DNA of 64,000 bases, taken from NCBI RefSeq assembly GCF_016906535.1, contig NC_057371.1:2666001-2730000 (forward strand), in the 5' to 3' direction. Made by a program: the position numbers and the translations under genes. This document shows, in pieces, positions 3,652-28,490 of the stretch. The notes beneath the pieces were generated by a model, which saw only the letters and a list, made by a program, of their open reading frames with translations, had not been told where the DNA came from and ran no database searches. The DNA is from Rhizoctonia solani. Lineage: Eukaryota > Basidiomycota > Agaricomycetes > Cantharellales > Ceratobasidiaceae. The first letter of the stretch is position 1; the number at the start of each line of letters is the position of its first letter.

Positions 3652-3770
3652 TACTCGAATGAAACGTCGTTGCGGCAAAACATAATGGAATAAGGCAGGA
3701 TTGTGGATAATTGCAATTCTTTTACGATACTGTGGTACACGGTAGTCCGAATCGCCCCCAATATCTATTC

Positions 3771-4106: not shown

Positions 4107-7100
4107 TCAGCCAACAAAACATCGCTGCCACTCATATCCAAGCGACAACGGCTTACTATAGTCCGCTCGAAGCGTGCCTTCAGGCCCGATCGTATAAACT
4201 GTCTCGGGGCGGGGAAAGACCTTGCGCAGATCAGATGGAACCCAGAAGAGTAGCCGCGAGTCGTGGTTACGTGCCCACCCCCCACTGTCGATCGTCAGTC
4301 CACCGGCAATGGCGCGATGAGGCTCCCTCTGATCCGAGGTTGAAGAGGCAGATCTGGATAAGTAGCATGCAGCGCCCCTTCCTGGTGTCTTCCATACTCG
4401 AACCGTCGAGTCCCATGAGCCCGAGACGATGTATGCACCGTCGGGTGAACATGCCACCGAGCTGATCCCACCTTGATGTCCTTCAAGTGGCTCGCATGCA
4501 GGAGCACCATCTCCCACCCTCCACACTCGAACACTTCCATCATCCGAGCCAGATACGATGTGATTGCCGTCGGGTGAGAACACGATTGACCTTACCTGGT
4601 CCTGATGTGCCATGAGAGGACCGAGAGCCAACTTGCCCCTGCGCGAGTCAAAAATGCGGATAGCGCCATCATCGGATCCGGAAGCAATGAGTCTGCCGTC
4701 AGGCGAGAACGTCACTGACATTATACGCTCTTTATGCCGCAGCGACCCAAACGGACGGAACACGCGTGATAGCGTCTGCGAGCCCCACATCCGGATCTTC
4801 CCGTCGTCAGACCAAGAAACAACATGCTTGCCGTCGGGGGAGAATGCCGCTGAGTTGACCTCGTCGTCGTGTGTTCTGACCAGGTCTGTAGGTGTCAGAG
4901 TGTCATCATCCACATCCCACACGCGTATGTTCTTGCCCCGCGAGGCAGAAACAACGTGCCTGCTATCGGGTGAGAACGACACTGACCATATCCTTTTTTC
5001 ATGCCCTCGAAGTGGACCGGATAGCAGCTTGCCACTTGCGGCATCCCATAGACATATGCCGTTGTCGTTGCCACCGGAAATAAGGTACCTGCCGTCGAGT
5101 GAGAACGCCACCGAGTTGATATCGTCGGTGTGTGCGACAAGTGGCTGGAGAGCAGCAGTGCCATCCTGTGTGTTGAACATGTAGATCGCTTCGTCGGCAC
5201 CCGCTGCGGCAATGCGTGACCCATCAGGCGAGATTGCAACCGACCAGACAGCGCTGGTTGGTGCGTTGGAATGTGAGGAGTGAGATGATGTCGAGTAGAG
5301 TCTGTTCCACATCTTGACGGTGCGATCGTCTGAGCATGATGCGACTCGTGTGCCGTCGGGTGAGAACGCAGCGGAGGAAACCGGTCCGTTGTGTGTGCCA
5401 AGTAGGCAAGGGTTGGAGTAGCCGGTCTCTACATCCCATATATACACGCACCTATCCCAAGAGCCAGTGACGAGTTTGTCTCCGAGTGGCGAAAACCCAA
5501 TGGATCTGATTGTGTCGTTGTGTACTTTGGGTGGGGAGTGTGTGGCGGTGCCGTCCTGTAGACTCCAGACGCGCAGATCACCGGATTCATGGCCAGTGAC
5601 AAGGTGCTTGCTGTTTGGCGAAAAGGCGATTGAATAGACTGAGGACCGATGAGCGTTGAATGGAAAAGGGAGTGACTCTCTGGTGGATGCGTCGTAAACA
5701 ACAATCGGACACGTATTGCTATCCAAGCCACATGCGATTTGCTTGCCATCAGGAGAGAATGCCGTGCAGAGGACTTCATCAGGATGGCGTTTGATGGAGT
5801 TGGGTATTTGACTTCCGTTGCCACTGTCCCATATCCGCGTTGTCTTGTCTTTGGACCCTGAGAGGATGTGCTTGCCCTCGGGTGAGAACGATACTGACGT
5901 CACCCAGCTTTCATGCCCCTTGATGACGTCATATATGCAGGTGCATGTCTGCGCGTCTCGCACAAGGATCGTACCGTCATAAGAGCCAGAGACAAGCAGC
6001 AGCCCATCGGGAGAGAACGCTACGGAGTTGACCTGCTTGGTGTGCCCCTCGAGGGGGCCAAGAGCAACCGTTCCATTGTGGCTATAAACTACATGTACTG
6101 TGCCATCTTGGAATCCAATTGCAAATCGAGACCCATCAGGAGAGAATGCCAGTGAGAGGGCAGCCAAGTCCATTGGCCATGTTGCTAGTAGCGCCGTTTG
6201 ACTTTGTTCCATTGCAGATCCTTCCAGGCTGAGAAGATCCCGAGTACGACCCCAGTACTGCTTGCGTACCGAGCTTGTCCGATGGCAGAATGCCAATGCC
6301 GAGATGTATATATGCGGCGTCGACTGCGAAACAGATCCAGCAGCATACTTTGACACAAAGATCCACGAGTCGTTCAGCAGCTTGGTCAGATATGATGATC
6401 CGTCTTCAATCTGTTACTCATCATCAGCCTCATACTCATACTGCACTGCTTAGATGCCTTACCGTCACCCATGGCTTGAGCGCTAACAGCATCCTCATCC
6501 CTTTGTCCAGCGTACGCTTCAGGCTCACCACCTCCATCCAGAACAGCAGTCGGTATGATAGAAGCTCTTCCAGCCCTTTCCGCACTGTCTCGCATGGCGC
6601 GCTCTTGACTACATGGTCTCCCCAGTGGTGTACTACGTATGACAGCATTGGCGAGATTGACCTTGCTATCCGATCATCTAGGTCTTGCACTTCGCTATCC
6701 GGTATGAACGACGTCTCTAGACTACAGATGTTGAACCGCAGCTGGTCTTCCATCACCTGGAAGCACCGTTCGGCGAGCAGCTGACTGTGCTTTGCTTCGT
6801 CGCAGTAGAACTTGGTCGACCGCGCCTCATCAAACATAAAGTCGGGGAACGATGCATGCAGCGTGGTGATCATCTTAGTTGCTTGCGACACGTGCAGCAC
6901 CGAATACAGAGGCTGCAGCAGTATGTTAGCCTTTGTCGCCTTGATCCCCGTCAGAGATGCCAGTGTATCGATGTCCACCGGCTCCCGTGTGCATACTGCG
7001 GTCCAGAGAACCAGTCGCATCTGTTGCTGCTCATGGGGGTTTCGGCCAGTTTGGCGTATTGCAGCCTCCAGGATTGTGGTATACAGGTCATCGATATCCG

Positions 7101-8937
7101 AGTGCTCATAGCCCGAGCTTGGTGACGAACTGAGAATGGCCTCGAGCCGATCTGGGTCGACCATTGTACCCATCTGTCGGACATATCGAATGGCGGTGGC
7201 GGCGTATATGAAAAGCCTTCCGGATAGCTTAGCAAGCTGGGTCAAATCGTGCTGGGAGATGCTGTCTCCGAGCTCTTCACGAAGGTACAGCTCGATGTCT
7301 GCTTCGACCATCGACCTCTCGATCTCGTGTAGCACGCATATCGATCGATTCAGGTCGGATTGTGCCTCGACCCTGTGACGGATGTCCGGCTCCGGTCGAC
7401 TGGTCACGAAGAACTTGAGTGGCAGGGTTGGAGTCATTCTGAAAAGTGCGTCCAAGATGGTTCGCACCCCGTTTGCGTTGCTGCATTCGTCAAGTGCATC
7501 GACCACGACCACAAGCCCTTTTGTAATCCCGGTCTTTACTCTCGATAGCGGCTCCTTGATAAGTCGCTCGCATTGCCTGTCTATCGACTGTGACTTGATG
7601 TTAGGCTGTTGTCCCAAAACCTCCAGCAACGCTGATCGAAAAGCAGGCGAACACTGTGCCAACTGATAGGCGATAGTCGGTATGATTCTTCCCACGTTTC
7701 GACATTCCTCGGATGTGCGGGTGCAAAAAAAGCTAGCCCCAAGTGCACCACGTTCTTCAAGACATTCGGCAAAGGTGTATGCGATCGTTGTCTTGCCTGT
7801 GCCGGCCATTCCGTTCATCCAGAACACGTTGGGCTTCGTCCAATCGACTGACCACTGTTCGAGCTCCAGCAAGATCTGCGACCGAGTGTTCCGAGTGCAT
7901 GCTCTACGATTCACATCGTGCGACAAAAGCGAGTTGTAGACCGCAGACTCCACAGGTGACAAACCTGCAAGACGAGAGTCCTGACCGAATAAACCTCAGT
8001 GTTCTCATTTATACATCCGATCTCGAGCTCACCGCCCGCCGTTCTTCGGCAATGTTCCACATTTTCAGGTTTGCTTCAATCTGTCCCGCATGTTAGCAAT
8101 GCCATTTACCAATATATACCTATCTCCCACCTTTATGTCCTTCAGTATGTCAGCTATGTTCTTGTACCCGCGTAGTATTTCCTCCTCGTCCTGGTCCGCA
8201 TCCGTAAGATATCTTGTAGTTCGATGGTCCTGCTTTCTGCGGATGATCGTCACTTGCTCTTCGACAGACCTTTGTATTCTGTCAGCTTTGCGGATTCGAC
8301 CTGTTTTGCATGACTTACGCTGCGATTCCTTCAAGGAACTCCGAAACATCGCTCGACTTGGCTTCCTGTATATGCCGGTGAAGCCTTTCAAGGAGCAGCG
8401 ACAGCCGTCTTGCTAATGCCTCCATTTCGCTATGATTCTTAGAGCTCAGCTAGACAAGAGTCTGGATTAGCCTCCATGAACCCGGCGGATATAGCCCAGA
8501 TCACCGACCTCTATGTGCTCGACGGAGGCTAGCAGTCCTCCAATAGCAGCCTGTAGAGGCGGAAACAGCTTCGTTGCGCTATGCAATGTTCTCAGTGTAC
8601 TGGTCAGGACTTGTATGGCTGGAAGCGCGGGGGTGGTGGGCCGAGGGACTTTGACGGTTGCAGTGTCTGTAGCAGCGTCGGTGCCTTTGCGTGGATCAGT
8701 TGCAACCGGCAGTTGACTTGTGTCTGAGTGTCCCAATGGGCTGCTTGACGGCACCGCGTTTTTATCAGCAGTAGAACGTGATTGAGAGGCGGACGGCTCC
8801 GCGTGTAAAGACTGGGTATTGGGGTGGATGGAAGGTGTGGGGGTAGAAAGATCCAACGCGTTGAGTCTTGCTACAATTTTATTTTTCTTGCGCCGCAAGG
8901 AGGCAAGAAAGCCTGTCGCTTCATCTGGGGAAGCCAT
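4107..8937 (-). CDS. NACHT-WD40 NLR receptor, copy 1 (1522 aa, six exons)
   Basis: Probable intracellular non-self receptor of the fungal NLR class (NWD/HET-E type). Exons by splice signals: 8937-8509, 8449-8319, 8269-8131, 8080-8033, 7980-6463, 6410-4107; all phases join without a stop. The first about 143 residues are Ser/Pro-rich with a helical end; exons 2-4 encode a charged, probably coiled-coil linker. The NACHT has Walker [10 protein letters not shown] near residue 306 and Walker [11 protein letters not shown] near 406. About 14 WD40 repeats span roughly 827-1437, enough for two seven-bladed propellers, and an 85-residue tail ends the protein. In the family NACHT drives oligomerisation and WD40 repeats sense ligands. 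The N-terminus matches no effector domain I know (not clearly HeLo, Goodbye or Patatin). No disabling change is seen. The exon-1 donor GTCGGT is weak and the least certain junction. Confidence 0.9.
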
Positions 8938-11900
8938 TGGCCGACCGTAGTCGTTGAGCTGGACAAGGGCACAAGCGCTTGAGGCTGCTCAGGTCAAGCG
9001 CGAATGATCGGCGCTTGCACGAACACCTTGTGGGGTCTTTGCATTTGTCATTCAGCCAACCAGTGCCAATGTCAGATTTTGCCATTTGAAGAGATTTGGC
9101 GTAGAGCGCTCATGTATTGGGGTGCGAGAGACTTGTCCGGTGCAGTTCTAGAAAAGCCTGATATCAAAGGCTCAAGGAGCTGGCTGGCTTGGAGGTCAAC
9201 ACGAAAACATATCATTTACCTAGTAACGATCCTGTGTCGGGACTTTGCTTTTTAGACGGACTGCGATATCTCACTGAATAAAACCAGGATACTACAACAT
9301 CGCATATTTGCTCAAGGTAACTACAGGATCTGAGTGCAGGTCAATACTAGGTACGATGATAGCTCATAGTACTTACCACTCAACTCAGGAAGCTGACCTA
9401 GTGGTTATTTTCTACGCCGCGGAACGGACCTTGTATGTCATCAGAGTGAAATCGATGGGCAAATGCGAATGGAATGTACTTTTCGGATGGGAGAATGCTG
9501 CCAGGAGAACAGTTTGGAACCTGAGGGACTTTGCACCGGGGCAACACGATATAAACTGAACAGAGCAGAAGTCGATAGAAAGCCGACGTGGATCGTCAAC
9601 TTGGCAAGCCCGTGGGAGGACCTATTCGAGGAGTCAGTCTTTACTCTTGATATAATTCGACAATTGCAGTTCTTGTATCTGTGCTAATTTCAACGATCAT
9701 AAGCAACTCATGAATGTGTGCATCACCAAACAAGCCAGCCGGACCAAGTCCGAGGGGAATCTGTCGTCAAACACTCACCGGCCGTCCCGGGTCTACATAT
9801 GAACTGACATACCCAAGTCCTTGGACTATCCGCATGATTCGTTCCGTTTGGTTCACCAAACATGAGCTTGCTACGAGTGACCAGTGCCTTGTCACCGACT
9901 TCGAACCCGACCGCCGAACACTGCGCATTTGAGTGAGGTTTCCTGAGCCGGGGTACCTCTGGTTCTTGGGTCCAAGAGAGACGAAGAAATCAATCACGCC
10001 GCTAATGCTGAGCTTTGATATGCGTATTCGGCCAAGTGTGAGGTCCTGCAGTAGTGGAAAATGAGAGGGAAGCATTAAGAGGAAAAAATAAGAAGTATCT
10101 ACTTATGCACATACAACTTGCGTCCCAGTCCAGACCTACTCGGTCAGCATGATCGTACACGTACGACGGCCTTGCCCGTCTTCGACCCGACAGCCTCTGG
10201 AGCAATCCTGTCACGTACACCTTGAGCCACCTCCTCCAATTTACGCGACACAACCGTACCTTTGGCTATGTATACCTAATCCCAAGCTTTGTTGCGAACT
10301 GGATTCCCGGGAGTGCTTTGGAGCGAGTAGAGATCGACCCTCTGGCCTGGACTTAGAGTGGACACAGCTCCACATTGGTGGCCGGTATAGGACGACCCAA
10401 CCAAAGCTGCAAGCTTCTCGCCTGTTTCAGCCAGCTTTTCTGCTCGGGTCTGATTGGGCATGTCGACAAGTTCTGCCAACCACAGTCAGCACGCAATATT
10501 CATCCGGCAGTCTGACAATCGCACCGGACTCGGCTTGCAAAAACACCCAGAAAATCTCCACGCGGTCGTCCGAGAAGGTAGTACTTCATAAAGTACGGCT
10601 GAGTGCCCAGTCTGAAGACGCAGCCCCCGCACACCCATGAGGTAGCTGCAAAAAGTCCCCGACACTGGCCATCTACGTCTGCTCGTTTCGACGGTTTCGG
10701 GATCGAAACAGAGTATGAGTCGTACGTGGGACACTCCAACAGCGTCTCTTCTGCTTCCCATCGTTCGCGCAGTTTCCTCGAGCGCATCACACGTTTTTGG
10801 GTCTATCTCCGATACTGCCTTGTATCAGCGGACGACGCATCAGACCTTTCATTGCACGCACTTTCATGTATGACCAGACTTTGCAGCTTTCGCCATTTCG
10901 CTCAGTGCTGAGTCGAGGTGGGGTCTGTTCGTCTTTGGAGCGGTCATTCGCCAGACCTTATGGCTGTGTGGGCATCTGCAGCACGGAGTTATTGGGGAAC
11001 GATGGTAGATGTGTGAAAATGACTACTCACAGACGGGTACAGAGGTATTCGTATAGTATCAAGGGTCGATCAGGATACACCTGCTGCGAGTGTGAATGGT
11101 CGCGTTTGGGCGGTGAGGCGTTGATACCGTTCGCAGCGTATATGACTTTCTAGATCCTATCTGCTGGCAATTGTGATGTTTCTGCGACGAGACTGGCATT
11201 TTATGCTTACCACAAGGTCGTGTGATGGGTGCATTCGACCCTCTCAGCACGCTATCGAGTACGTCCTCTTATTCTTCTGACAGACTACGGCGAGAGTGCG
11301 CATGGGACTTCAATGACGCAGTCTCGGTGATAAGACACGAGCAAAAGAACATAGTCGAGCTGACTCGGATGGTATGGACTTGCATGTCTGGGATAGTGAT
11401 GCTGACAAAAGCCGGTGCCCATTTCGTGCTGAGCATCCAAGCATGGACGATCGTAGTTCAGAACTCCCAACAGGCTCAAGCGCCAGAACCCTGAAGCTGA
11501 CTCAGCGTGGACCCGAGCAGTTGTGACTCCCTGCGCCACTCTCTCGGTCACCTCATACTCGAATATCGTCTTGTTCATTTTTCCGCTCTACTATCCACTC
11601 GTCAGAAATGCTCAACACGAGACGGGAGTATGGATCACGACCGAGGGCGGACGACGTCAGTTGGAGTAAACGCGAATATGAACCCGGATATTTGACTCGT
11701 CCCAATCTCAGCGGAACTACCCTCATCCCTCCTTATAGACACGGTGCTCATCATAACCTGCTCCAGGCTGGGCAAGCTGGGAGCTCGACCCTAGGATACA
11801 GCGTCTCGTTGGCGAGGCCATGGTTTATCAACTCGTGACGGATGCCACGGAATTGCCGAGGAGAGAAGGTTCACTCATCAAACTAAACATGGACTCGATC

Positions 11901-12150
11901 TGGCGCTGTTACTATGTCATTCTCTCAGTAGGTCTACGGCCTTGCACGAGTGGACAAGTAGAGCTGACTGTCTTCTAAGCGTCATGTCTGCCCTTTTGCA
12001 GGAAATCGCATCTATCCTCCCTCGGCTTTTCCTGTCAGCTCTCATAACCAACACGTCCTTGAGGGTTTGTGACGCGCTTGCTCCGATGCAATGTGCTTCC
12101 AGTAGCAGTGATTCAATGTACGTATATATCTCTAGCTCAAGATCCTTATC
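8938..12150. other. Unit-1 spacer, no recognised gene
   Basis: About 3.2 kb between the start of the NLR gene and the GMC remnant, repeated at 20193-23410. Several short frames are shared by both copies, for example minus 10276-10479 (67 codons, paralog 21528-21731) and minus 10500-10790 (paralog extended to 21605-22042). Their ends shift between copies and none resembles a known family. It may hold a decayed gene or long regulatory sequence. Confidence 0.4.
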
Positions 12151-13210
12151 ATGCCTGTCTACCCAGCGAACACCTATAAGTCCACCACTCACAGGCTTAA
12201 CCTTGGCGTATTGACCGAGGCGCGAGCCACCAATATCGACCTTGATCACTCTGACAAAAATGGCAAGACGAGGGGTACCTCTTTTCAGTCCAAGAGCAAG
12301 CCGTTGATTGCTAATGCTGGAAATGAAGTTGTGCTTTCGGCTGGCGAGTTCATCGTGCGCTACGATGGCATCTTCAAGGCTAACAAGGAATATCCAGGTA
12401 CTCTTCTGATCCCTGAACTTCTTGAGCCGAGCAGCATTGACAGTCGCAACGTGTTGAGGAAGCGCAAGACTATCCCAAAGATCGACCTTTCTGAAGTTGG
12501 GGAGAAGTACCAAGACCATATCTTGGTTTCGACTACATACGAGGTAAGGAAAGGGCTCGTCACCTGTGACAGCCCTGGGTATAATGATACATTTAGTGCA
12601 GCTGCCGAAGCTCAATAGTAAGCAGGCTTAAGATATATTAGATGAATGGGAGCTTACACGAGAACAATGAAAAGACTCATGACTGGCCACTTGTCGCTTC
12701 TAACTCCATGCTATCATAGATCGACCTTCACTACCTTGCTAGTTGTGGCAAGATCGCGCACATGCACGGGTCGCTGTGGGAGGACCTGAGGAAGGAAAGG
12801 CCTCCGATGCTTCAGAAGGAGTAGTACAGAATCCAAGGGCTGTGGCTGAGGAAGAAGATGTGTAGCGTCGAAATGATTCTGCATCAAGGCAAGTATGCTG
12901 TTCGGCGGTTTTCCAAAAGTCTTGTTGACTGTGTGACCCTATCAGGATACTTTGGACCCGGTCCAGCAAAGTCGGATACGTCATGTATCTCATTTATCAT
13001 GTGCAATCAACATCCATTCTCCAGCTGACGCATTGTCAGTCATGATTGCTATCCGCCATGCGCCACCCAATCAACCGGCTTACGTCATAGCCAACTCTTT
13101 AACACCTCAGATCCCCTGTCACCTCCAGCCATCGACCCTACCCACCTACCCAAGCGACTATGTATATTGTTTGCAATCTATTACTACTTTTTCTGAAACC
13201 TCGTCACCGG
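12151..13210 (+). pseudogene. GMC oxidoreductase remnant, copy 1 (truncated)
   Basis: The residues resemble the middle of a glucose-methanol-choline flavoenzyme: NLGVLTEARATNI, a VVLSAG-like strand, a degenerate LLEPSSI version of the GMC signature 2, and an EVGEKYQDH stretch matching the usual DLPGVGeNlQDH. Lesions: the intron acceptor before the next exon is AACAA where copy 2 has AACAG; TAG at 12717-12719 replaces a Trp codon; TAG at 12822-12824 replaces a Gln codon. The FAD-binding N-terminus is not recognisable, and the 3' end is cut off at the duplication junction near 13210, so the C-terminal catalytic region is missing. Confidence 0.75.
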
Positions 13211-13212
13211 TG

Positions 13213-15361
13213 CAGAAATAAAATCGGTCGAGACATGACCTGAACGCGTGAGCCCATGCGCAGCATTTCGAGTCTATGTTCCTCTTCTGTACAAGAGTAC
13301 TGGCCTTTACCGCAATCCACCTCTACCACCTCCTAGATCATCCTCCCCTTGTGTATGTCTGATTCGTTCGCTATGGCCTAGCTTGGTGCCTGACGAAGCG
13401 ACATGCCAAAGCGCTGCTAGCTTCTACTCGAGTTGCCGGATGCTATAACGAGCCGGGGGAGGGAGAGGGGGGGAGCAAACGAGTACCTAACTCGTACGTC
13501 TAACGAGTCACAAACCCAAACGTCGTCGATGCCCTGAGCATATATTCAGACCGTTGCATCCAGTACAAGTAGCGCCGACATCCCCGATCTGTTTCCTTGA
13601 TTCGTACTGTTTGATTGGCTATTGATTGATCGCTTGGTTGACTGGGAAATCCGCATACGCCTACTCAATTTGCGACATTTCGAAAGAAAATTCCTCAACT
13701 CACTCCCACAGTCAGAACCAGACAGGCTGCCATGCAAGAGTGAAGGATCATACCATGGCCATATCGAATTCGTCGCTATAACTCAGAACCAGAGAGGGGG
13801 ACATATGTGGCTCACATGCAGGCGGAGTATCTCGTGACTGGCATATCGTCGAAGCTGGTGAATGTCGAAACCCAGATAGCGCAGAGATTGCGGCGAACAT
13901 ACTCCACGACACGTCCGCCATGATGCTTGATGAGACAAGAGACATCCGGGATATATAGGCGCCGAAAAAAGGGCGGTGTTTTCGTTGCCTGGCTGTTAGA
14001 AAGTGTCATTCTTTTTGATTTCAACAAATTAAGGATTGTTGCCAAGTAGCATTCGGTCGTAGCACCGAAACAAACTATCGCGGGGCATGAATAGCCTAGT
14101 CAAGATACATACTATTTATTATATAAATATCCACTCACCCAGGGTCAATCAAAAAGCGTTCAGCACTTTCCGCAGTTCGCACCCGAACCCCCCCCCCCTT
14201 GACACTTACCCATGGGAGTCAGCGAAGCTTGGACGAAGCTATATTCTCGCCATTCGCGTAGATTCGAGCCATCATGTTAGGCATAGTTGAGTACGGCGAA
14301 TTGGCTATCTGTTATGACCTGCTACTCTCACACCGTATCAGTTGCTATATCGTAGATGGGGATGCAGTAGACACTCCTTCGGCATCACATGAGCATGCGT
14401 GTCGAACGCTGTACCAAGCCAGATGGGGAGTAGGCGGCCTTGTTTCATATAAAGTATGAGAGATTGACAGTTATGAACAAAACAATTCGGAAGTGATGCG
14501 GACCCTTTGCGTCTGGACTCGGACAGCTTTTGGAGTTGTGTATTTGCGTTCAAGAGACGATCACCAGTGTAGTGAAAAATGTTGTTCCAGTGTATGTAGA
14601 TTTTGTGACATAGGTTATTGTGCTGTACTGTTGAATATGGGTCCACAACTCAGAGATAAACATCGAGCGTTCAATATGCGTGGATATCGACGTCGAAACT
14701 GAGTGATGGGTGAGCGTCGAGGCAGACCCTAACCTGACCAAACAAAGTGACAGCAAAGCTTAATTATAAGCCCCAGCCCGATCTTCTGATCGATCCACGA
14801 TCGAGTCAGATTCTGATAGTAGTCCAACAGTTCTTCAGTTCTCTCATATATCATGGATGCCAGGAACACATACGCTCTGCAGTACCGGAAGACTGACGGG
14901 AAGTTATCGAGATAGAGAGATCCTAACACTTTGAGCGGCCACAAACGCCAATAAGACATCAGACCGACTCTGATATCAATTCAAGTTGACCAGCCATAAG
15001 GCATTATCCTCTTACTTTTGATCGATAGTGCTTCGGTTTGCTAAGACCTAATCTTTCTGAGCCCGGTTAGAACGTGGCTCAAATGAAACCATATGATACC
15101 TGCAAAAAGGTGTCTGCCACACCGGGACCGAATAAGATACATGCACCCCGTGTTCATGAGCTTACGTATGACTCTGATCATTACTCGAATGAAACGTCGT
15201 TGCGGCAAAACGTAATGGAATAAGGCAGGATATATGGATAATTGCAATTCTTTTACGATACTGTGGTACACGGCAGTCCGAATCGCCCCCGATATCTATT
15301 CTCAACCCACAAGTCAATACATGACCACTGATCGACCATATTAACAGTGCTCACCTCACTC
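13213..15361. other. Unit-2 5' non-coding block
   Basis: Matches 755-4106 apart from the two missing insertions. Empty target sites for both lie here (TA at 15182-15183; TTC at 15299-15301). No gene is recognised. Confidence 0.45.
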
Positions 15362-18300
15362 TCAGCCAACAAAACATCGCTGCCACTCATCTCCAAGCAA
15401 CAACGGCTTACTATAGTCCGCTCGAAGCGTGCCTTCAGGCCCGATCGTATAAACTGTCTCGGGGCGGGGAAAGACCTTGCGCAGATCAGATGGAACCCAG
15501 AAAAGTAGCCGCGAGTCGTGGTTACGTGCCCACCCACCACTGTCGATCGTCAGTCCACCGGCAATCGCACGATGAGGCTCCCTCTGATCCGAGGTAGAAG
15601 AGGGAGATTGTGATAGCTCCGATACAACGCCTGTTCTTGGTGCCTTCCATACTCGGATCGTCGAGTCACCTGAGCCTGAGACGATGTATGCACCGTCGGG
15701 TGAACATGCCACCGAGTTGACCCAACCTTGATGTCCTTCAAGTGGCTCGCATGCAGGAGCGCCATCTTCCACCCTCCACACTCGAACGCTTCGATCAGCC
15801 GAGCCAGATACGATGTGATTGCCGTCGGGTGAGAACACAATTGACCTTACCCAGTCCTGATATGCCTTGAGAGGACCGAGAGCCAACTTGCCACTGCGCG
15901 AGTCAAAAATGCGGATAGCGCCATCATCGGATCCGGAAGCAATGAGCCTGCCGTCAGGCGAGAATATCACCGTCCAGATAGGCCCTTTATGCTGCTGCAA
16001 CCCAAACAGATCAAACACGGGTGATAGCGTCTGCGAGTCCCACATCCGGATCTTCCTGTCGTCAGACACAGAAACAACATGCTTGCCGTCGGGGGAGAAT
16101 GCCGCTGACTTGACCTTGTCGTCGTGTGTTCTGACCAGGTCTGTAGGTGTCAGAGTGCCATCATCCACATCCCACACGCGTATCGTCTTGTCCTCGGAGG
16201 CAGAAACAACGTGCCTACTATCGGGTGAGAACGACACTGACCATATCCTTGCCTCATGCCCTCGAAGTGGACCGGATAGCAGCTTGCCGCTTGTGGCATC
16301 CCACAGACATATGCATTTGTCGTCGCCGCCAGAAACGAGGTACCTGCCGTCGAGTGAGAACGCCACCGAGAAGATCCAATCGGTGTGTGCGACAAGTGGC
16401 TGGAGAGCGGGAGTGCCATCGTGTGTGTTGAACATGTAGATCGCTTTGTCTTCACCCGCTGCGGCGATGCGTGACCCATCAGGCGAGATTGCAACCGAGT
16501 GGACACGCTTGGTTAATGCGTTGGAGTGTGAGGTGTGAGATGATGTCGAGTGCAGTCCATTCCACATCTTGACAGTGCGGTCATATGAGCATGATGCAAC
16601 TCGTGTGCCGTCGGGTGAGAACGCAGCGAAGGAAACCTCAAGGTGGTGTGTGCCAAGTAGGCAAGGGTTGGAGTAGCCGTTCTCTACATCCCATATATAC
16701 ACGCACCTATCCCAAGAGCTAGTGACGAGTTTGTCTCCAAGAGGCGAAAACCCAATGGATGTGATTGCTTTGTTGTGTACTTTGGGTGGGGAGTGTGTGG
16801 CGGTGCCGTCCTGCAGACTCCAGATGCGCAGTTCACCGGACTGATGGCCAGTGACAAGGTGCTTATTGTTTGGCGAAAAGGCGATTGATCGGACTGGGGA
16901 TTGATGAGCATCGAATGGAAAAGGGAGAGACTCGCTGGTGGATGCGTCGTAAACAACAATGGGACACTTATCGCTGCTCAAGCCACATGCGATATGCTTG
17001 CCATCAGGAGAGAATGCCGTGCAGTTGACTGGGAAAGGATGGCGTTTTATGGAGTTGGGTATGAGACTGCCGTTGCCACTGTCCCACATCCGCGTTGTCT
17101 GGTCATTGGACCCTGAGAGGATGTGCTTGCCGTCGGGTGAGAACGATACTGACGTCACTTCTTCTCTATGCCCCTTGATGACGTCATATATGCAACTGCC
17201 CGTCTGCGCGTCTCGCACAAGCATTGTACCGTCCTCAGAGCCAGAGACAAGCAGCAGTCCGTCGGGAGAATATGCTACGGATCTGACCAAATTGGTGTGT
17301 CCCTTGAGGGGGCCAAGAGCAACCGTTCCATTGTGGATATAAACTACATGTACTGTGCCATCTAAGAATCCAATTGCAAATCGAGACCCGTCAGGAGAGA
17401 ATGCCAGTGAGAGGGCATACGTGTTTATCGGCCATGATGCTAGTAGCGCCGTTTGACTTTGTTCCATGGCAGATCCTTCCAGGCTTAGAAGATCCCGAGT
17501 GCGACCCCAGTACTGCTTGTATACCGAGCTTGTCTGATGGCAAAATGGCAACGCCGAGATGTATATATGCGGCGTCGACTGCGAAACAGATCCCGCAGCA
17601 TACTTTGACACAAAGATCCACGAGTCATTCAGCAGCTTGATCAGATATGATGATCTGTCTTCAACCTTTTACTCATCATTAGCCTTGTACTCACACTGCA
17701 CTGCTTAGATGCCTGACCGTCACCCATGGCTTGAGCGCCGACAGCATGCTCACCCCTTTGTCCAGCGTACCCTTCAGGCTCACCACCTCCATCCAGAACA
17801 GCAGCCGGTATGACAGGAGCTCTTCCAGCCCTTTCCGCACTGTCTCGCATGGCGCGCTCTTGACTACATGGTCTCCCCAGTGTTGCGCTACGTATGACAG
17901 CGTTGGCGAGATTGACCTTGCTATCCGATCTTCTAGGTCTTGCACTTCGCTGTCGGGTATGAACGACGTCTCTAGACTACAGATGTTGAATCGCAGCTGG
18001 TCTTCCATCACCAAGAAGCACCGTTCGGCGAGCAGCTGACTGTGCTTTGTTTCGTCGCAGTAGAACTTGGTCGACCGCGCCTCATCGAACATAAAGTCGG
18101 GAAACGATGCATGCAGCGTGGTGATCATCTTGGTTACTTGCGACACGTGCAACACCGAATACAGGGGCTGCAGCAGTATGTTAGCCTTTGTCGCCTTGAT
18201 TCCCGTCAGAGATGCCAGTGTATCGATGTCCACCGGCTCCCGCGTGCAAACTGCAGTCCAGAGAACCAGTCGCATCTGCTGCTGCTCATGGGGGTTTCGG

Positions 18301-20192
18301 CCAGTTTGGCGTATTGCAGCCTCCAGGATTGTTGTATACAGGTCGTCGATATCCGAGTGTTCATAGCCCGAGCTTGGTGACGAACTGAGAATGGCCTCGA
18401 GCCGATCTGGGTCGACCATTGTACCCATCTGTCGGACATATCGAATAGCGGTGGCGGCATATATGAAAAGCCTTCCGGATAGCTTAGTAAGCTGGGTCAA
18501 ATCGTGCTCGGAGATGCTGTCTCCGAGCTCTTCACGAAGGTACAGCTCGATGTCTGCTTCGACCATTGACCTCTCGATCTCGTGTAGCACGCATATCGAT
18601 CGATTCAGGTCGGATTGTGCCTCGACCCTGTGACGGATGTCCGGCTCCGGTCGACTGGTCACGAAGAACTTGAGTGGCAGGGTTGGAGTCATTCTGAAAA
18701 GTGCGTCCAAGATGGTTCGCACCCCGTTTGCGTTGCTGCATTCGTCAAGCGCATCGACCACGACCACAAGCCCTTTTGTAATCCCAGTCTTTACTCTCGA
18801 TAGCGGCTCCTTGATGAGTCGCTCGCATTGCCTGTCTATCGACTGTGACTTGATGTTAGGCTGTTGTCCCAAAACCTCCAGCAACGCTGATCGAGAAGCA
18901 GGCGAACACTGTGCCAACTGATAGGCGACAGTCGGTATGATTCTTCCTACGTTTCGACATTCCTCGGATGTGCGGGTGCAAAAGAAGCTAGCCCCAAGTG
19001 CACCACGTTCTTCAAGACGTTCGGCGAAGGTGTATGCGATCGTTGTCTTGCCTGTGCCGGCCATTCCGTTCATCCAGAACACGTTAGGCTTCGTCCAATC
19101 GACTGACCACTGTTCGAGCTCCAGCAAGATCTGCGACCGGGTGTTCTGAGTGCATGCTCTACGATTCACATCGTGCGACAAAATCGAGTTGTAGACCGCA
19201 GACTCCACAGGTGACAAACCGGCAAGACGAGAGTCCTGACCGAATAAACCTCAGTGTTCTCATTTATACATCCGATCTCGAGCTCACCGCCCGCCGTTCT
19301 TCGGCTATGTTCCACATTTTCAGGTTTGCTTCAGTCTGTCCCGCACGTTAGCAATGCCATTTACCAATATATACCTATCTCCCACCTTTATGTCCTTCAG
19401 TATGTCAGCTATGTTCTTGTACCCGCGTAGTATTTCCTCCTCGTCCTGGTCCGCATCCATAAGATATCTTGTAGTTCGATGGCCCTGCTTCCTGCGGATG
19501 ATCGCCACTTGCTCTTCGACAGACCTTTGTATTCTGTCAGCTTTGCGGATTCGACCTGTTTTGCATGACTTACGCTGCGATTCCTTCAAGGAACTCCGAA
19601 ACCTCGCTCGACTTGGCTTCTTGTATATGCAGGTGAAGCCTTTCGAGGAGCAGCGATAGCCGTCTTGCCAATGCCTCCATTTCGCTATGATTCTTAGAGC
19701 TCAGCTAGACAAGAGTCAGGATTAGCCTCCATGAACCCGGCGGATATAGCCCCAATCACCGACCTCTATGTGCTCGACGGAGGCCAAAAGTCCTCCAATA
19801 GCAGCCTGTAGAGGCGGAAACAGCTTCGTTGCGCTATGCAATGTTCTCAGTGTACTGGTCAGGACTTGCATGGCTGGAAGCGTGGGGGTGGTGGGCCGAG
19901 GGACTCTGACGGTTGCGGTGTCTGTGGCCGCGTCGGTGGCTTTGCGTGGATCAGTTGGAACCGGCGGTTGACCTGTGTCTGAGTGTCCCAATGGGCTGCT
20001 TGACGGCACCGTATTTTCATCAGCAGTAGAACGTGATTGAGAGGCGGACGGCTCCGGGGGTAAAGACTGAGTACTGGGGTGAATGGAAGGTGTGGGAGTA
20101 GAAAGATCCGACGCGTTGAGTCTTGCTACGATTTTATTTTTCTTACGCCGCAAGTAGGCACGAAAGCCTGGCGCTTCATCTGGGGAAGCCAT
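15362..20192 (-). CDS. NACHT-WD40 NLR receptor, copy 2 (1522 aa, six exons)
   Basis: Paralog of the NLR at 4107-8937 with the same exon plan: 20192-19764, 19704-19574, 19524-19386, 19335-19288, 19235-17718, 17665-15362. The NACHT exon is nearly identical to copy 1, including GMAGTGKTT and the [11 protein letters not shown]alker B. The N-terminus shows scattered replacements. The WD40 part differs mostly at the residues after the GH dipeptide and around the SGSxDx turn of each repeat, while framework residues (FSPDG, the Trp/Asp pairs) are kept. The gene is open throughout. The last-exon acceptor is AAAAG, whereas copy 1 has AACAG. Role as for copy 1, presumably with a different recognition surface. 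Confidence 0.9.
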
Positions 20193-23100
20193 TGGCCGAC
20201 GGTAGTCGTTGAGCTGGACAAGGGCACAAGCGCTCGAGGCTGCTCAGGTCAAGCGCGAATGATCGGCGCTTGCACGAGCACTTTATGGGGTCTTCGCATT
20301 TGTCATTCAGCCAACCGGTGCTAATGTCAGATTTTGCCATTCGAGCGGATTTGGCGTAGAGTGGTCTTGTATTGGGGCCCAAGAGACTTGTCCGGTGCAG
20401 TTCTAGAAAAACCTGATGTCAAAGGCTCAAGGAGCTAGCCGGCTTTAAGGTCAACACGAAAACATATCATTTACCTAGTAACGATCCTGTGTCGGGACTT
20501 TGCTCTTTTTACGCACTGCAATATCTCACTCAATAAAACCAGGATACTCCAACATCGCATATTCGCTCAAGGTAACTACAGGATCTGAGTGCTTGTCAAT
20601 ACTGGGTACGATGATAGCTCATAGTACTTACCATTCAACTCGGGAAGTTGACCTAGTGGTTATTTTCTACGCCGCGGAACGGACCTTGTATGTCATCAGA
20701 GTGAAATCGATGGGCAAATGCGAATGGAATGTACTTTTCGGGTGGGAGGATGCTGCCAGGAGAACAGTTTGGAACCTGAGGGACTTTGCACCAGGGCAAC
20801 ACGATATAAACTGAACAGAGAAGAAGTAAATAGAAAGCAGACGTGGATCGTCAACTTGGCAAGCCCGTGGTAGGACCTATCCGAGGAGTCAGTCTTTACT
20901 CTTGATATAATTCGACAATTGCAGTTCTTGTATCTGTGCTAATTTCAACGATCGTAAGCAACTCATGAATTTGTGCATCACCAAACAAGCCAGCTAGACC
21001 AAGTCCCAAGGGAGCCTGTCATCACACACTCACCGGTTGTCTTCAGCCTACATGCCAATTGACATACCCAAGTCCTTGGACTATCCACACAACTCATTCC
21101 GTTTGGTTCATCAAACATAAGCTTGCTAGTGATCGGTACCTTGTCACCGGATTCGTACTCGACCGCCAAACACTACACATTCCAGTGAGGGTTCCTGAGC
21201 CGGAGTACCTGTGGTTCTTCGGTCTAACAGAGGCGAAGAAATCGATCATGCCGCTAATGCTGAGCTTTGATATGCGTATTCGGCCGAGAGGGAGGACCTG
21301 CAGTAGTGGAAAATGAGAGGGAAGCACTAAGGGGAAAAAATAAGAAGTATCTACTTATGCACATACAACTTGCATCCCACTCCAGACCTACTCAGTGAGC
21401 ATGATCGTGCACGTACGACGGCCTTGCCCGCCTTCAACTTGACAGCCTCCGGAGCAGTCCTGTCACGTACACCTTCAGCCACCTCCTCTAATTTATGCGA
21501 CACAATCGTACCTTTGGCTATGTATACCTAATGCCAAGCTTCGTTGCAAACTGGATTCCCGGGAGTGCTTTGGAGCGAGTAGAGATTGACCCTCTGGCCT
21601 GGACCTAGAGTGGGCACAGCTCCACATTGGCGGGCGGTATAGGACCACCCAAGCAAAGCCGCAAGCTTCTTGCCTGTTTCAGCCAGCTTTTCTGCTCGGG
21701 TCTGATTGGGCATGTCGACAGGTTCTGCCAACCACAGTTAGTACGCAATATTCGTCCGGCAGTCTGACAATCGCACCGCACTCGGCTTGCAAAAACACCC
21801 AGAAAATCACCACGCGGTCTTCTGAGAAGGTAGTGCTTCATAATGTACGGCTGAGTGCCCAGTCTGAAGACCCAGCGCCCGCAGACCCATGAGGTAGCTG
21901 CAAAAAGTCCCCGACACTGGCCATCCACGTCTGCTCGTCTCAACAGTTTCGGAATGGAAACAGAGTACGAATCGTACGTGGGACACTCCAACAGCGTCTC
22001 TTCTGCTTCCCATCGTTCGCGCAGTTTCCTCGAGCACATCAAACGTTTTTGGATCTATCTGCGATACTGCCTTATATCAGCGGACGACGCATCAGACCTT
22101 TCATTGCACGCACTTTCATGTATGACCAGACTTTACAGCTTTCGCCATTTCGCTCAGCGCTGGATCGAGGCGGGGTCTGTTCGTCTTTGGAGCGGTCATT
22201 CGCCAGACCTTATGGCTGTGTGGGCATCTGCAGCACGGAGTTATTGGAGAACAATGGCAGATGTGTGAAAATGACTACTCACAGACAAGTGCAGAGGTAT
22301 TCGTATAGTATCAAGGGTCGATCAGGATATACCTGCTGCGAGTGTGAATGGTCGTGTTCGGGCGGTGAAGCGTTGATACCGTTCGCAGAGTATATGACTT
22401 TCTAGATCCTATCTGCTGGCAATTGTGATGTTTCTGCGACGAGATTGGCATTATAGGCCTACTGGAAGGTTGCGTGATGGGTGCATTCGACCCTCTCAGC
22501 ACGCTGTCGAGTACGTCCTGTTGTTCTTCTGACAGGCTACGGCGAGAGTGCGCATGGGACTTTCAATGAGGCAGTCTCGGTGATGAGACACGAGCAAAAG
22601 AAGAAATTCAAGCTGACTCGGATGATATGGAGTTGTATGTCTAAGATAGTGATGCTGACAAAAGTCGGTGCCCGTTTTGTACTGAGCATCCAAGCATGGA
22701 CAATCGTAGTCAAGAACTCCCAACAAGCTCAAGCGCCAGAGCCCTGAAGCTGACTCAGGGTGGACCCGAGCAGTTGTGACTTTCTGCGCCGCTCTCTCGG
22801 TCACCTCATACTCGAATATCGTCTTGTCTATTTTTCCGCTCTACTATCCACTCGGCAGAAATGTTCAATACGAGACGGGAGTATGGATCACGACCGAGGG
22901 CGGACGACGTCAGTGTTAGAGTAAACACGAATACGAACCCGGATATTCGACTCGTCCCAATCTCGACGGAACTACCCTCATCCCTCCAATGGACACGGTG
23001 CTCATGATAACCTGCTCCAGGCTGGGCAAGCTGGGAACACGACCCTAGAATATGGCACCTTGTTGGCGAGGCCATGGTTTATCAACTCGTGATGGATGCC

Positions 23101-23410
23101 ACGGAATTGCCGAGGAGAGAAGGTTCACTCATCAAACTAAACATGGCGAAACCCACTCGATCTGGCGCTGTTACCATGTCATTCTCTCAGTAGGTCTATG
23201 GCCTTGCAGGAGTGAACAAGTAGAGCTGACTGTCTGCTAGGCGTCATGGCTGCCCTTTTGCAGGCAATCGCATCTGTCTTCCCTCGGCTTTCCCTCGCCA
23301 ACCCTCATAACTGATACGCTCCAGGAGGCTTGCGACGCGCCTTTTTGATGCAATGTGTTGCTAGTAGCAGTGAGTCAATGTATGTATATCTTTAGCTCGA
23401 GATACCTATC
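20193..23410. other. Unit-2 spacer, no recognised gene
   Basis: Counterpart of 8938-12150. A 145-codon minus-strand frame at 21605-22042 is the longest; the unit-1 copy breaks it at a stop, so coding function is doubtful. Confidence 0.4.
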
Positions 23411-24749
23411 ATGCCCGCTTACGCAGCAAACACCTACTACAAGTCCGCCGCTCACAAGTCCAACCTTGGCGTATTGACCGAGGCGCGAGCCACCAATATC
23501 GAACTCGATCATTCTGAGAAAGATGTCACGACGAGGAGTATCTCTTTTCACTTCAACAGCGAGTCATTGACTGCCAAGGCTGGAAAGGCAGTCGTGCTTT
23601 TGGCTGGTGAGCTCATCATGCGTTACGACGGTGTCTTCAAGGCTAACAGCGAACATTCAGGTACTCTTCTGGTCCGCCAACTTCTTGAGCCGAGCAGCAT
23701 TAACAGTAGCAATGTATTGAAGAATCTCAAGTTTATTCTAAAGGCCGACCTCCCTGGAGTTGGGGAGAACTACCAAGATCATGTTTTGGTTTCGACTACA
23801 TACGAAGCAAAGAAAGGGGTCATCACCTACGACAACCTTGGGTATAACGATACCTTTAGGGCAGCTGCCGAAGCTCAGTAGTAAGTGGGCTTGCAATATA
23901 TCCGATGAACGGGAGCTTACACGAGAACAGTGAAAAGACTCATGACGGGCCACTTGCCGCTTCTAACTCCATGCTATCATGGATCGACCTTCACTACCTT
24001 GCTAGTTGTGGCAAGATTACGCATATGCACAGGTCGCTGTGGGAGGACGTGAGGAAGTACAAAGCTACGTTGCTTCAGAAGGAGCAGTACAGGATCCAAG
24101 AGCTGTGACTGAGGAAGAAGATGGGCAAAGTCGAAATCATTCTGCATCCAGGCAAGTATACTATTCGACACTTTGCCAACAGTCACGCTGACCGTGTGGT
24201 CTGATCAGGATCCTTTGGACCCGGTCCCGCAAAGCCGAAAACGTCATGCATCTCGATTATCATGTGCATTCAGCATCCATTCTCTTGTGGAAACATTGCA
24301 AGTCGTGACTGCTATCCGCCACGCGCCACGCAATCAGGCTGCTTATGTCATGCCCAGCATTTGAACACCTCACACTCCCTGTTGCCTCCAGCTATCGATC
24401 CTAACTACCTGTCCAAGCAAACAGGTGCGTTATTTGCCATCTATTACCCACCTTTCTAAAACGTTGTCCCCAATATAGACCAGAGCATCCTCGTGGGGTC
24501 AGTCAAGTTTGCCAGTAAGATTGCCGAGACTGACCGACTGGCTGCGATGCTTGTTGCCTAACAGGACTCCAGTCCAGGTGTCAAGTAGTACGAGGATATT
24601 AACAAATGGGTCAAGGGCAAATCCGCACTTTGCACCACCTAATAGGAACTGCGGCGATGGCGGCCAAATCGGTTGGAGGGGTGGTGGATGAGAAGCTGAA
24701 GGTGTATGGAACGAGTAATCTGCAAGTGGTATATGATGTTTCGGAGTAG
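23411..24749 (+). pseudogene. GMC oxidoreductase remnant, copy 2 (3' part preserved)
   Basis: More complete GMC remnant. It reads through NLGVLTEARATNI and a VVLLAG strand. Removing a 54-bp GT-AG intron then joins AG to TLLVRQLLEPSSI, followed by ADLPGVGENYQDHV. Further exons give AIDPNYLS, FASKIAETDRLA and, near the end, IGTAAMAAKSVGGVVDEKL and YGTSNLQVV, the typical GMC C-terminal block. The catalytic His usually before GTAAM is not clear. An in-frame TGA at 24106-24108 sits where copy 1 keeps TGG, and another stop lies near 24586. Members of the family include aryl-alcohol oxidases and choline dehydrogenases; this copy looks inactive. Confidence 0.75.
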
Positions 24750-25255
24750 TGATATGTGATATTCCGTTCTGAAAATTGTCACGATGATAGGTGGACGCAA
24801 GTGTGATCCCTATGCACCTCGCCGCTTATCTGCAGCGCCCTGTCTAAGGTGTTGCGGAAAGGGCAACTGATACTATCAGGGACGATTCGGAGCTCTAACT
24901 TCGAGTTATGTTCGGAGCATTTTATTTTCTATGTTGAAATACTAGAAGACTATTTCCCGAAGTTTTTCGAGCTGTGAGATGCCTTTGCACTACATGTACA
25001 GTGGATACAAGCGACAGCGATGTACTCTATGTGTTCCGATTTCATATGCATTCCCATATGTTGTGACTTACCCGACGGCTAAGGCTTCACTCATAGATTG
25101 AGGCGTACCTCGCACGTTGGGCCTTGCTCGAGCGGGGCCTGATTGGAGCAGAAATTTGTGGAGCACGACAGACTGTTATATTGCGTCAGCAAAAGAAATA
25201 CATCGTACTGGGCGGCATAAACGTCCATGGATATACATAAAGCACACTACGGACC
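24750..25255. other. Spacer between unit 2 and the third NLR gene
   Basis: About 0.5 kb unlike the spacers of units 1 and 2. No gene or repeat recognised. Similarity to the other NLR 3' flanks resumes near 25256. Confidence 0.4.
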
Positions 25256-28200
25256 ATTCGGTATCTATTCTCTGCCTAAAAGTAAATATATGACTACACA
25301 TTGACCACATCAACAGTGCTCACCTTACTCTCAGCCAACAAAACATTGGTGCCACTCGTCATCAAGTAACAAAGGTTTGTCATAGTCCACTTGAAGGCTG
25401 CCTCGAGGGCCAATGATGCATACTTCTCCGGAGCAGGGGAAAATCTCGAACATATCTGATGGAACCCAGAAAACTAGCTGTAAGTCAAGGTTGCGCGCCC
25501 ACCCACCACTGTCGATCGTCAGTCCACTGGAGATCGCACGATGAGGCTCCCTCTGGTCTGAGGTCGAAGAGGCAAATCGAGATGAGTCGTATGCAGCGCC
25601 CCTTCCTGGTGCTTTCCATACTCGAATCGTCGAGTCATCCGAGCCTGAGACGATGTATGCACCGTCGGGTGAACATGCCACCGAGCTGATCATATCTTGA
25701 TGTCCTTCAAGTGGATTGCATGCGGGAGCCCCATCTTCCACCCTCCACACTCCAACGCTTCCATCAGCCGAGCCAGATACGATGTGATTGCCGTCGGGTG
25801 AGAACACAATTGACCTTACCCGGTCCTGATGCACCATGAGAGGACCGAGAGCCAACTTGCCACTGCGCGAGTCAAAAATGCAGATAGCGCCATCATCGGA
25901 TCCGGAAGCAATGAGTCTGCCGTCAGGCGAGAATATCACCGACCAGATAGGCCCTTTATGCTGCTGCAACCCAAACAGATCAAACACGGGCGATAGCGTC
26001 TGCGAGTCCCACATCCGGATCTTCCCGCCGTCAGACCCAGAAACAACATGCTTGCCGTCGGGGGAGAATGCCGCTGAGTTGACCTCGTCGTCGTGTGTTC
26101 TGACCAGGTCTGTAGGTGTCAGAGTGCCATCATCCACATCCCACATGCGTATGGTCTTGTCCTTGGAGGCAGAAACAACGTGCCCACTATCGGGTGAGAA
26201 CGACACTGACCATATCATTTCTTCATGCCCTCGAAGTGGACCGGATAGCAGCTTGCCGCGTGTGGCATCCCACAGACATATGCATTTGTCGTCGCCGCCA
26301 GAAACGAGGTACCTGCCGTCGAGTGAGAACGCCACCGAGAAGATCCAATCGGTGTGTGCGACAAGTGGCTGGAGAGCGGCAGTGCCATCGTGTGCGTTGA
26401 ACATGTAGATCGCTTTGTCTTCACCCGCTGCGGCGATGCGTGACCCATCAGGCGAGATCGCAACCGAGTAGACACCATTGGTTAGTGCGTTGGAGTGTGA
26501 GGAGTGAGATGATGTCGAGTGCAGTCCATTCCACATCTTGACCGTGCGATCGTCTGAGCATGATGCGACTCGTGTGCCGTCGGGTGAGAACGCAGCGGAG
26601 TTAACATCAAAGTGGTGTGTGCCAAGTAGGCAAGGGTTGGAGTAGCCGTTCTCTACATCCCATATATACACGCACCAATCCCAAGAGCTAGTGACGAGTT
26701 TGTCTCCGAGTGGCGAGAACCCAATGGATCTGATTCTGCCGTTGTGTACTTTTGGTGGGGAGTGTGTGGCGGTGCCATCCTGTAGAGTCCAGACGCGCAG
26801 TTCACCGGATGAATGGCCAGTGACAAGGTGCTTGCTATTTGGCGAAAAGGCAATTGAAAAGACTGGGGATTGATGAGCATCGAATGGAAATGGGAGCGAC
26901 TTGCTGGTGGATGCGTCGTAAACAACGATAGGAGACTTCTTGCTACCCAACCCACATGCGATATGCTTGCCATCAGGAGAGAATGCTGTGCAGTTGACTT
27001 CATTAGGATGGCGTTTGATGGAGTTGGGTATCAGACTGCCGTTGCCACTGTCCCACATCCGCGTTGTCCCGTCCCAGGACCCTGAGAGGATGTGCTTGCC
27101 GTTGGGTGAGAACGATACTGACGTCACTGCTCTTTCATGCCCCTTGATGACGTCATATATGCAGTTGCCCGTCTGCGCGTCTTGCACAAGGATTGTACCG
27201 TCATAAGAGCCAGAGACAAGCAACAGTCCATCGGGAGAGAACGCTACGGAGTTGACTTCCCTGGTGTGCCCCTCAAGGGGGCCAAGAGCAACCGTTCCAT
27301 TGTGGGTATAAACTACATGTACTGTGCCATCTTCAAATCCAATTGCAAATCGAGACCCATCAGGAGAGAATGCCAGCGAGAATGCTCTCGAGTCCATCGG
27401 CCATGTCGCAAGTAGCGCTGTTTGACTTTGTTCCATGGCAGATCCTTCCAGGCTTAGAAGATCTCGAGTGCGACCCCAGTACTGCTTGTATACCAAGCTT
27501 GTCGGATGGCAAAATGGCAACGCCGAGATGTATATATGCGGCGTCGACTGCGAAACAGATCCAGCAGCATACTTTGACACAAAGATCCACGAGTCGTTCA
27601 GCAGCTTCATCAGATATGATGATGTGTCTTCGACCTATCAGCCGTCATCAGCCTCGGACTCATACTGCACTACTCAGATGCCCTACCGTCACCCATGGCT
27701 TGAGCGCTAACAGCATGCTCGTCCCTTTGTCCAGCGCACCCTTCAGATTCACCACCTCCATCCAGAACAGCAGCCGGTATGACAGGAGCTCTTCCAACCC
27801 TTTCCGCACTACCTCACACGGCGCGCTCTTGACTACATGGTCTCCCCAGTGGTGCGCTACGTATGACAGCGTTGGCGAGATTGACCTTGCTATCCGATCT
27901 TCTAGGTCTTGCACTTTGCTATCCGGTATGAACGACGTCTCCAGACTACAGATATTGAATCGCAGCTGTTCTTCCATCACCTCGAAGCACCGTTCGGCGA
28001 GCAGCTGACTGTGCTTTGCTTCGTCGCAGTAGAACTTGGTCGACCGCGCCTCATCAAACATAAAGTCGGGGAACGATGCATGCAGCGTGGCGATCATCTT
28101 AGTTGTTTGCGACACGTGTAGCACCGAATACAGAGGCTGAAGCAGTATACTGGCCTTTGTCGCCTTGATTCCGGTCAGGGCTGCTAGTGTATCGATGTCC

Positions 28201-28490
28201 ACCGGCTCCCGCGTGCAAACTGCGGTCCAGAGAACCAGTCGCATCTGCTGCTGCTCATGGGGGTTTCGGCCAGTTTGGCGTATTGCAGCCTCCAGGATTG
28301 TGGTATACAGGTCGTCGATATCCGAGTGCTCATAGCCCGAGCTTGGTGACGAACTGAGAATGGCCTCGAGCCGATCTGGGTCGACCATGGTACCCATCTG
28401 TCGGACATATCGAATGGCGGTGGCGGCATATATGAAAAGCCTTCCGGATAGCTTAGCAAGCTGGGTCAAATCGTGCTCGGAGACGCTGTC
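25256..28490. repeat. Third, partial copy of the NLR block
   Basis: Strongly similar to 15290-18530 and 4045-7275, covering the 3' flank, the whole WD40 exon and the 3' part of the NACHT exon. Near 28485-28500 similarity falls sharply although the reading frame and exon lengths continue unchanged. Confidence 0.8.

Follow-up and report, generated by a model that had tools for sequence, protein, structure and literature searches.

Diversifying selection at the WD40 propeller top faces of a NACHT-WD40 gene family in Rhizoctonia solani

The window analysed here is a stretch of 64,000 nucleotides of Rhizoctonia solani DNA (contig C2, positions 2,666,001-2,730,000). Three NACHT-WD40 genes of the NLR type lie in tandem on its minus strand, with spacings of 11.3 and 10.0 kb. 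A first-pass annotation of the window noted that their WD40 arrays differ mainly at predicted surface positions, and proposed that they may form a recognition-diversifying allorecognition or immune locus. Do these positions evolve under diversifying selection, and what might they recognize?

Gene structure and genome-wide family

The three genes and their domains are listed in Table 1. Each WD40 exon contains 14 WD units in a single register. P0185, a public R. solani protein, is as long as copy 1 and 100% identical to it over query residues 100-700 and over the 767 residues of the WD40 exon. The Pfam matches listed for the window copies and the scanned homologues include no peptidase that would back the public name of P0185, 'peptidase C14'. 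Two features by which fungal NLRs (STAND proteins) are recognized are present. A NACHT/STAND NTPase is identified by PF24883 and PF05729, and the structure search matches STAND proteins and Apaf-1. The C terminus carries superstructure-forming repeats, the 14 WD units, which the predicted model arranges as two propellers, for the most part at high local pLDDT. An Rfam scan of the window gave no match.

Table 1. Features of the three NACHT-WD40 genes in the window
Feature	Position	Strand	Description and basis
NLR gene copy 1	4107..8937	-	1522 aa; splice-site search and open spliced frame
Copy 1 exons	8937-8509, 8449-8319, 8269-8131, 8080-8033, 7980-6463, 6410-4107	-	Six exons
Copy 1 WD40 exon	4107..6410	-	14 blades, two predicted seven-bladed propellers; Pfam PF00400 (4e-129), unit register, AlphaFold model
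Copy 1 NACHT exon	6463..7980	-	STAND NTPase and downstream helical region; PF24883 (1.6e-30), PF05729 (2.6e-8)
Copy 1 N-terminal exons 1-4	8033..8937	-	Low-complexity leader, then predicted helical bundle; gene model and helices in modelled homologue P0001
NLR gene copy 2	15362..20192	-	1522 aa; exon structure as in copy 1 at +11255, open frame
Copy 2 WD40 exon	15362..17665	-	14 WD units; Pfam
NLR gene copy 3	25331..30161	-	N-terminal region and initial part of NACHT derive from a different lineage
Copy 3 WD40 exon	25331..27634	-	14 WD units; Pfam

Copy 3 is a mosaic. Its N-terminal part shares 36-49% DNA identity with copies 1 and 2, which is close to what unrelated DNA would show. The identity rises to 62-79% in the first part of NACHT and to 76-98% over all downstream sequence. 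These steps indicate that modules have been exchanged between genes.

The structure model of homologue P0001 predicts a helical bundle ahead of the NACHT domain. For copies 1 and 3, the ORF of the first N-terminal exon matches no Pfam family at E<=0.001. In the homologues P0001, P0002 and P0004, scanned against Pfam at E<=10, there is no match to the HET domain or to MLKL, HeLo or Goodbye, and no credible match for the N-terminal bundle. A PDB sequence search with P0001 returned two matches only, both at chance level (E 0.4), and the match lists of two structure searches for the N terminus were filled by the NACHT domain. The Goodbye/HeLo/MLKL-like superfamily is described as the most frequent one in basidiomycete NLRs (PMC9815663). 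The R. solani proteins resemble the basidiomycete MLKL-like (BaMLKL) NLR effectors in having a predicted helical bundle ahead of NACHT, but no MLKL, HeLo or Goodbye match in the three scanned homologues places them in that group.

The three window genes do not stand as a single locus but belong to a family spread over the genome. A search of the genome (40.7 Mb, 16 contigs) identified 25 close copies of the WD40 exon (62-100% identity), including those in the window. Eleven are on C2, ten on C10, and one each on C5, C11, C12 and C14. Of these WD40 exons, 18 have no stop, six contain stops, and one is truncated. One copy, L024, has two extra tandem blades. Two NACHT searches of the genome gave 85 and 104 matches, or about 100, some of which are fragments of one gene.

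Selection on the top face of the propellers

The motifs that the annotation quoted for repeats 2, 3, 4, 7 and 8 and for the repeat 3 turn are present letter for letter in all three copies. Among the three copies, 164 of the 768 WD40-exon residues vary. The WD unit is numbered after Paoletti et al. 2007, with the register inferred from conserved codons 8 and 26, which are flanked by selected pairs. Unit positions 6, 7, 9, 25 and 27 vary at 53 of 70 residues, as compared with 111 of the 698 other residues (odds ratio 16.5, p 6e-25), and position 7 varies in all 14 blades. Mapped onto the modelled double propeller, positions 7, 9, 25 and 27 fall within the d-a and b-c loops or enter strand a by one residue. 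They are thus at the predicted top face, as had been claimed, and variable sites are not spread over strand or bottom-loop positions. The structure alignment used 17 of the 18 copies, with L024 left out.

Selection was estimated with our own implementation of a codon model rather than with PAML or HyPhy. The model is HKY-type with F3x4 frequencies, and synonymous and nonsynonymous changes each have a rate of their own. The main test included 18 of the 25 paralogues, after the six with WD40-exon stops and the truncated one were dropped. Selection is here read between paralogues of one genome, which do not reveal selection within populations.

The codons at positions 7, 9, 25 and 27 (56 codons in total) have a dN/dS of 4.05, with a 2dlnL of 135 against neutrality. 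The remaining 712 codons of the WD40 exon have a dN/dS of 0.454, and the overall value is 0.608. Taken singly, positions 7, 9, 25 and 6 have values of 7.4, 5.0, 5.0 and 1.85, respectively. Position 27 alone gives 1.64, just below significance (LRT 3.66). The conserved neighbour codons 8 and 26 have values of 0.19 and 0.50. Of the 39 sites in the WD exon (768 sites) with a posterior above 0.9, 34 are at positions 6, 7, 9, 25 and 27. In these copies, dN/dS across the NACHT exon is 0.232, and none of 472 sites there is selected. Removal of L018, whose NACHT exon is interrupted by a stop, leaves the result standing (4.37 at the face and 0.45 in the rest). The elevated dN/dS that the annotation anticipated at its sites is therefore borne out by the paralogues, at 4.05 versus 0.45.

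Both propellers are selected at the face, with dN/dS values of 3.91 and 4.25. The point estimate for the face exceeds 1 in all 14 blades (2.2-10.7, with the rest at 0.16-0.61, scaled to the mean synonymous rate). The selected sites are at loop or near-loop positions, as would be the case if exposed loops were simply free to vary. Such relaxed constraint is extremely improbable and already contradicted, since the dN/dS of the face is well above 1 and the bottom-face loops of the same blades are conserved, with a value of 0.37.

The 252 blades contain 236 distinct four-residue combinations, a diversity that a targeted mutator or a mutation hotspot in the loop codons could also generate. The synonymous rate, however, is raised neither at the face (0.90, 0.74-1.11) nor in the adjacent codons (0.90, 0.82-1.00), which makes a local mutator very unlikely. 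Multi-nucleotide changes were rejected as a cause. When only single-nucleotide codon differences are counted, in eight pairs sharing no copy, the ratio is still 3.68 for face codons and 0.33 for the others.

Recombination occurs in the family, as the mosaic copy 3 demonstrates, and gene conversion or a wrong tree could in principle mimic selection. The outcome is the same when 14 separate per-blade trees are used (face dN/dS 4.06) and when pairs are counted without any tree, where the face has pN above pS in 133 of 153 pairs and the other codons in 0 of 153. This agreement argues against a recombination artefact, of which there is very little chance.

The stop-bearing copies provide a partial pseudogene control. 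On their own branches the face rate falls to 2.18, compared with 3.68 (2dlnL 25), but is still above 1, perhaps because the copies were functional along the greater part of these branches. Outside the face, the exon shows no relaxation in these copies (0.44 versus 0.41, 2dlnL 2.6).

Recurrence in another clade, species and isolates

The same positions are selected in a separate clade on contig C8, which comprises 11 copies with 8 blades. Its dN/dS at the four positions is 5.05, with a 2dlnL of 66. The set represents 11 of 15 fetched loci. Two short frames and two divergent loci were left out, and L037 was kept despite a stop in its NACHT exon.

In Ceratobasidium theobromae, the highest entropies among the 40 unit positions are those of 7, 25, 9 and 27, a measure of variability and not of dN/dS. 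The set consists of 42 proteins of 1450-1580 aa found among the best 120 of 224 matches.

Other R. solani records contain presumed counterparts, which were compared at the protein level, with orthology presumed, in the seven pairs with at least 94% identity. Seven records with 100% identity, on contigs equal in length to those of this genome, and the stop-bearing pair L012/P0212 at 91% were left out. Over the seven pairs, 59 of 489 face residues differ, compared with 80 of 4865 other residues (odds ratio 8.2). The check on other isolates suggested in the annotation, done here on proteins and without dN/dS, thus finds face differences enriched in four of the seven pairs. The differences at the face and elsewhere number 14/10, 15/26, 8/26 and 21/16 in these four, and in two of them most differences are off the face, which is only enriched. 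The other three pairs come close to identity, with 0 to 2 differences over all aligned residues, and carry no signal.

Alternatively, adaptation may have been a single event in each paralogue, towards an endogenous partner that is fixed and particular to it, and no arms race would be going on. Most of the data are between paralogues, and three of the isolate pairs hardly differ, both of which fit such directional specialization. It is nevertheless rather unlikely, as the face is enriched for differences in the four pairs above, each between presumed counterparts of one gene.

Comparison with known systems and possible role

Podospora anserina NWD/HNWD proteins (HET-D, HET-E and HET-R) share the NACHT-WD40 architecture. 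Paoletti et al. 2007 (PMC1805685) report positive selection in the Podospora NWD genes at codons 7, 9, 25 and 27, which flank the conserved codons 8 and 26. The R. solani genes are under diversifying selection at these same four WD codons, in agreement with the correspondence drawn by the annotation. Strong diversifying selection at Podospora-equivalent positions gives good support to its reading of the array as recognition-diversifying. The two systems also display differences. The HET domain of the HNWD proteins is absent from the scanned R. solani sequences, and the HNWD genes belong to Ascomycota whereas the R. solani genes belong to Basidiomycota. The R. solani proteins would work like the Podospora recognition surface, yet they are not HNWD members.

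A further difference lies in the repeats themselves. Podospora repeats are described as having about 85% internal identity and undergoing repeat exchange (PMC4986451). In R. solani, different blades within a gene share a mean identity of 31.8%, with a maximum of 55%. The same blade shares 72.8% between genes. Diversification in R. solani therefore proceeds without repeat homogenization of the Podospora type. Dyrka et al. 2014 (PMC4986451) count 1,589 NLR hits for 22 species of agaricomycetes. Across fungal NLRs, they give the share of WD repeats with high internal conservation as 21.6%. The R. solani genes resemble the basidiomycete NACHT-WD NLRs without highly conserved repeats in that survey, being agaricomycete NLRs with WD repeats. 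As described there, selection was tested only on the highly conserved Podospora repeats, whereas the non-homogenized R. solani family shows selection. Our literature search, which reached few subscription journals, found no published site-level selection on basidiomycete NLR propellers. The result suggests that fungal NLRs with non-homogenized WD repeats should not be presumed non-diversifying.

Apaf-1 has a CARD at its N terminus and 7+8 WD blades. The R. solani proteins differ from it in having another helical bundle in place of the CARD, 7+7 blades, and diversifying top faces.

The genes probably encode intracellular NLR-type receptors, which is the best explanation of the data. Their predicted architecture has a helical bundle at the N terminus, followed by a NACHT/STAND switch and, at the C terminus, a double WD40 propeller with seven blades in each half. 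Selection repeatedly swaps the top-face residues of both propellers (positions 7, 9, 25 and 27, and 6 more weakly), and preserves the framework together with the bottom faces and the NACHT module. By analogy with NLR biology, the top faces would bind a variable or fast-changing ligand, and binding would free the NACHT domain to oligomerize. The N-terminal bundle might then set off local cell death.

It is quite possible that such receptors guard against parasites (mycoviruses, bacteria or other fungi) and not against conspecific cells, with incompatibility, if any, as a by-product. Large clustered families with stop-bearing copies are typical of immune NLR birth and death, and stops are present in six of the 25 WD40 exons here. 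The roughly 100 NACHT hits in one genome also fit a guard function. On the other side, we know of no parasite-derived ligand. In addition, the WD40 differences in Podospora are reported to decide the recognition of an endogenous incompatibility partner (PMC12881547). The ligand of the proposed NLR-type receptors may thus be a conspecific protein, as in somatic incompatibility, or be derived from a parasite, and the data favour neither.

R. solani is classified by hyphal anastomosis groups, that is, its groups are defined by hyphal fusion. Tentatively, the genome-wide NACHT-WD40 repertoire might constitute a somatic self/non-self system, with about 56 to 70 selected top-face residues per receptor that change by point mutations without repeat shuffling. 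If so, diversifying WD40 recognition in fungi would be independent of concerted evolution and would span Ascomycota and Basidiomycota. The genes of somatic incompatibility in basidiomycetes are poorly understood, and all current models rest on ascomycete work according to a 2021 paper (PMC8229728). The present result provides mapped candidate receptors together with the exact residues.

A co-duplicated ORF in the window (12151-12618) was considered as a linked partner gene and rejected. It is at best weakly similar to GMC oxidoreductases (E 0.18), and 15 of its 18 matches in the genome are partial or broken by stops. For these reasons it is treated as a hitch-hiking relic.

The Podospora partner whose recognition is decided by WD40 differences is HET-C, a glycolipid transfer protein (PMC12881547). 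One glycolipid transfer protein (GLTP) gene, of the HET-C family and hence a first ligand candidate, was found in the R. solani genome. It lies on contig C8, where a NACHT-WD40 pair is 12 to 20 kb away.

Mosaic structure of copy 3

Copy 3, one of three tandem NACHT-WD40 genes on the minus strand, is composed of parts whose DNA matches copies 1 and 2 to unequal degrees. The identity is 36–49% in the N-terminal part, 62–79% in the first part of NACHT, and 76–98% downstream of it. This profile marks an intragenic domain swap in copy 3, with another lineage as the source of the N-terminal region and the first NACHT part.

Features in the window and on contig C8 of the same genome
Feature	Position	Strand	Description
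Divergent part of copy 3	27660–30161		N-terminal region plus the first NACHT part
Element with inverted ends	2726–3653		928 bp; 136-nt inverted ends
Co-duplicated ORF	12151–12618; 23411–23881	plus	weakly GMC-oxidoreductase-like
GLTP (HET-C family) gene	C8:787243–787581
NACHT-WD40 pair	C8:799496–807953

WD40-exon paralogues

Three of the six stop-bearing paralogues, L013, L023, and L025, are depleted in CpG, with observed/expected ratios of 0.65, 0.75, and 0.39, respectively. The ratio is 0.86–0.91 in the remaining three and 0.87–1.02 in stop-free copies. The depletion is consistent with the CpG-biased hypermutation reported in R. solani AG8 (PMC4014442).

The WD40 exon of L024 encodes 852 residues and contains two additional, nearly identical tandem blades, an expansion present only in this one of 25 copies.

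Associated elements and genes

The 928-bp element has seven full genome copies of 97–100% identity, along with more diverged ones, and may explain most of the 1.2 kb by which the repeat spacings differ. Relatives of the co-duplicated ORF are mostly partial or broken, and many adjoin other NLR genes on C2, the window's contig.

A genome search found a single GLTP gene, which lies 12–20 kb from the NACHT-WD40 pair on C8.
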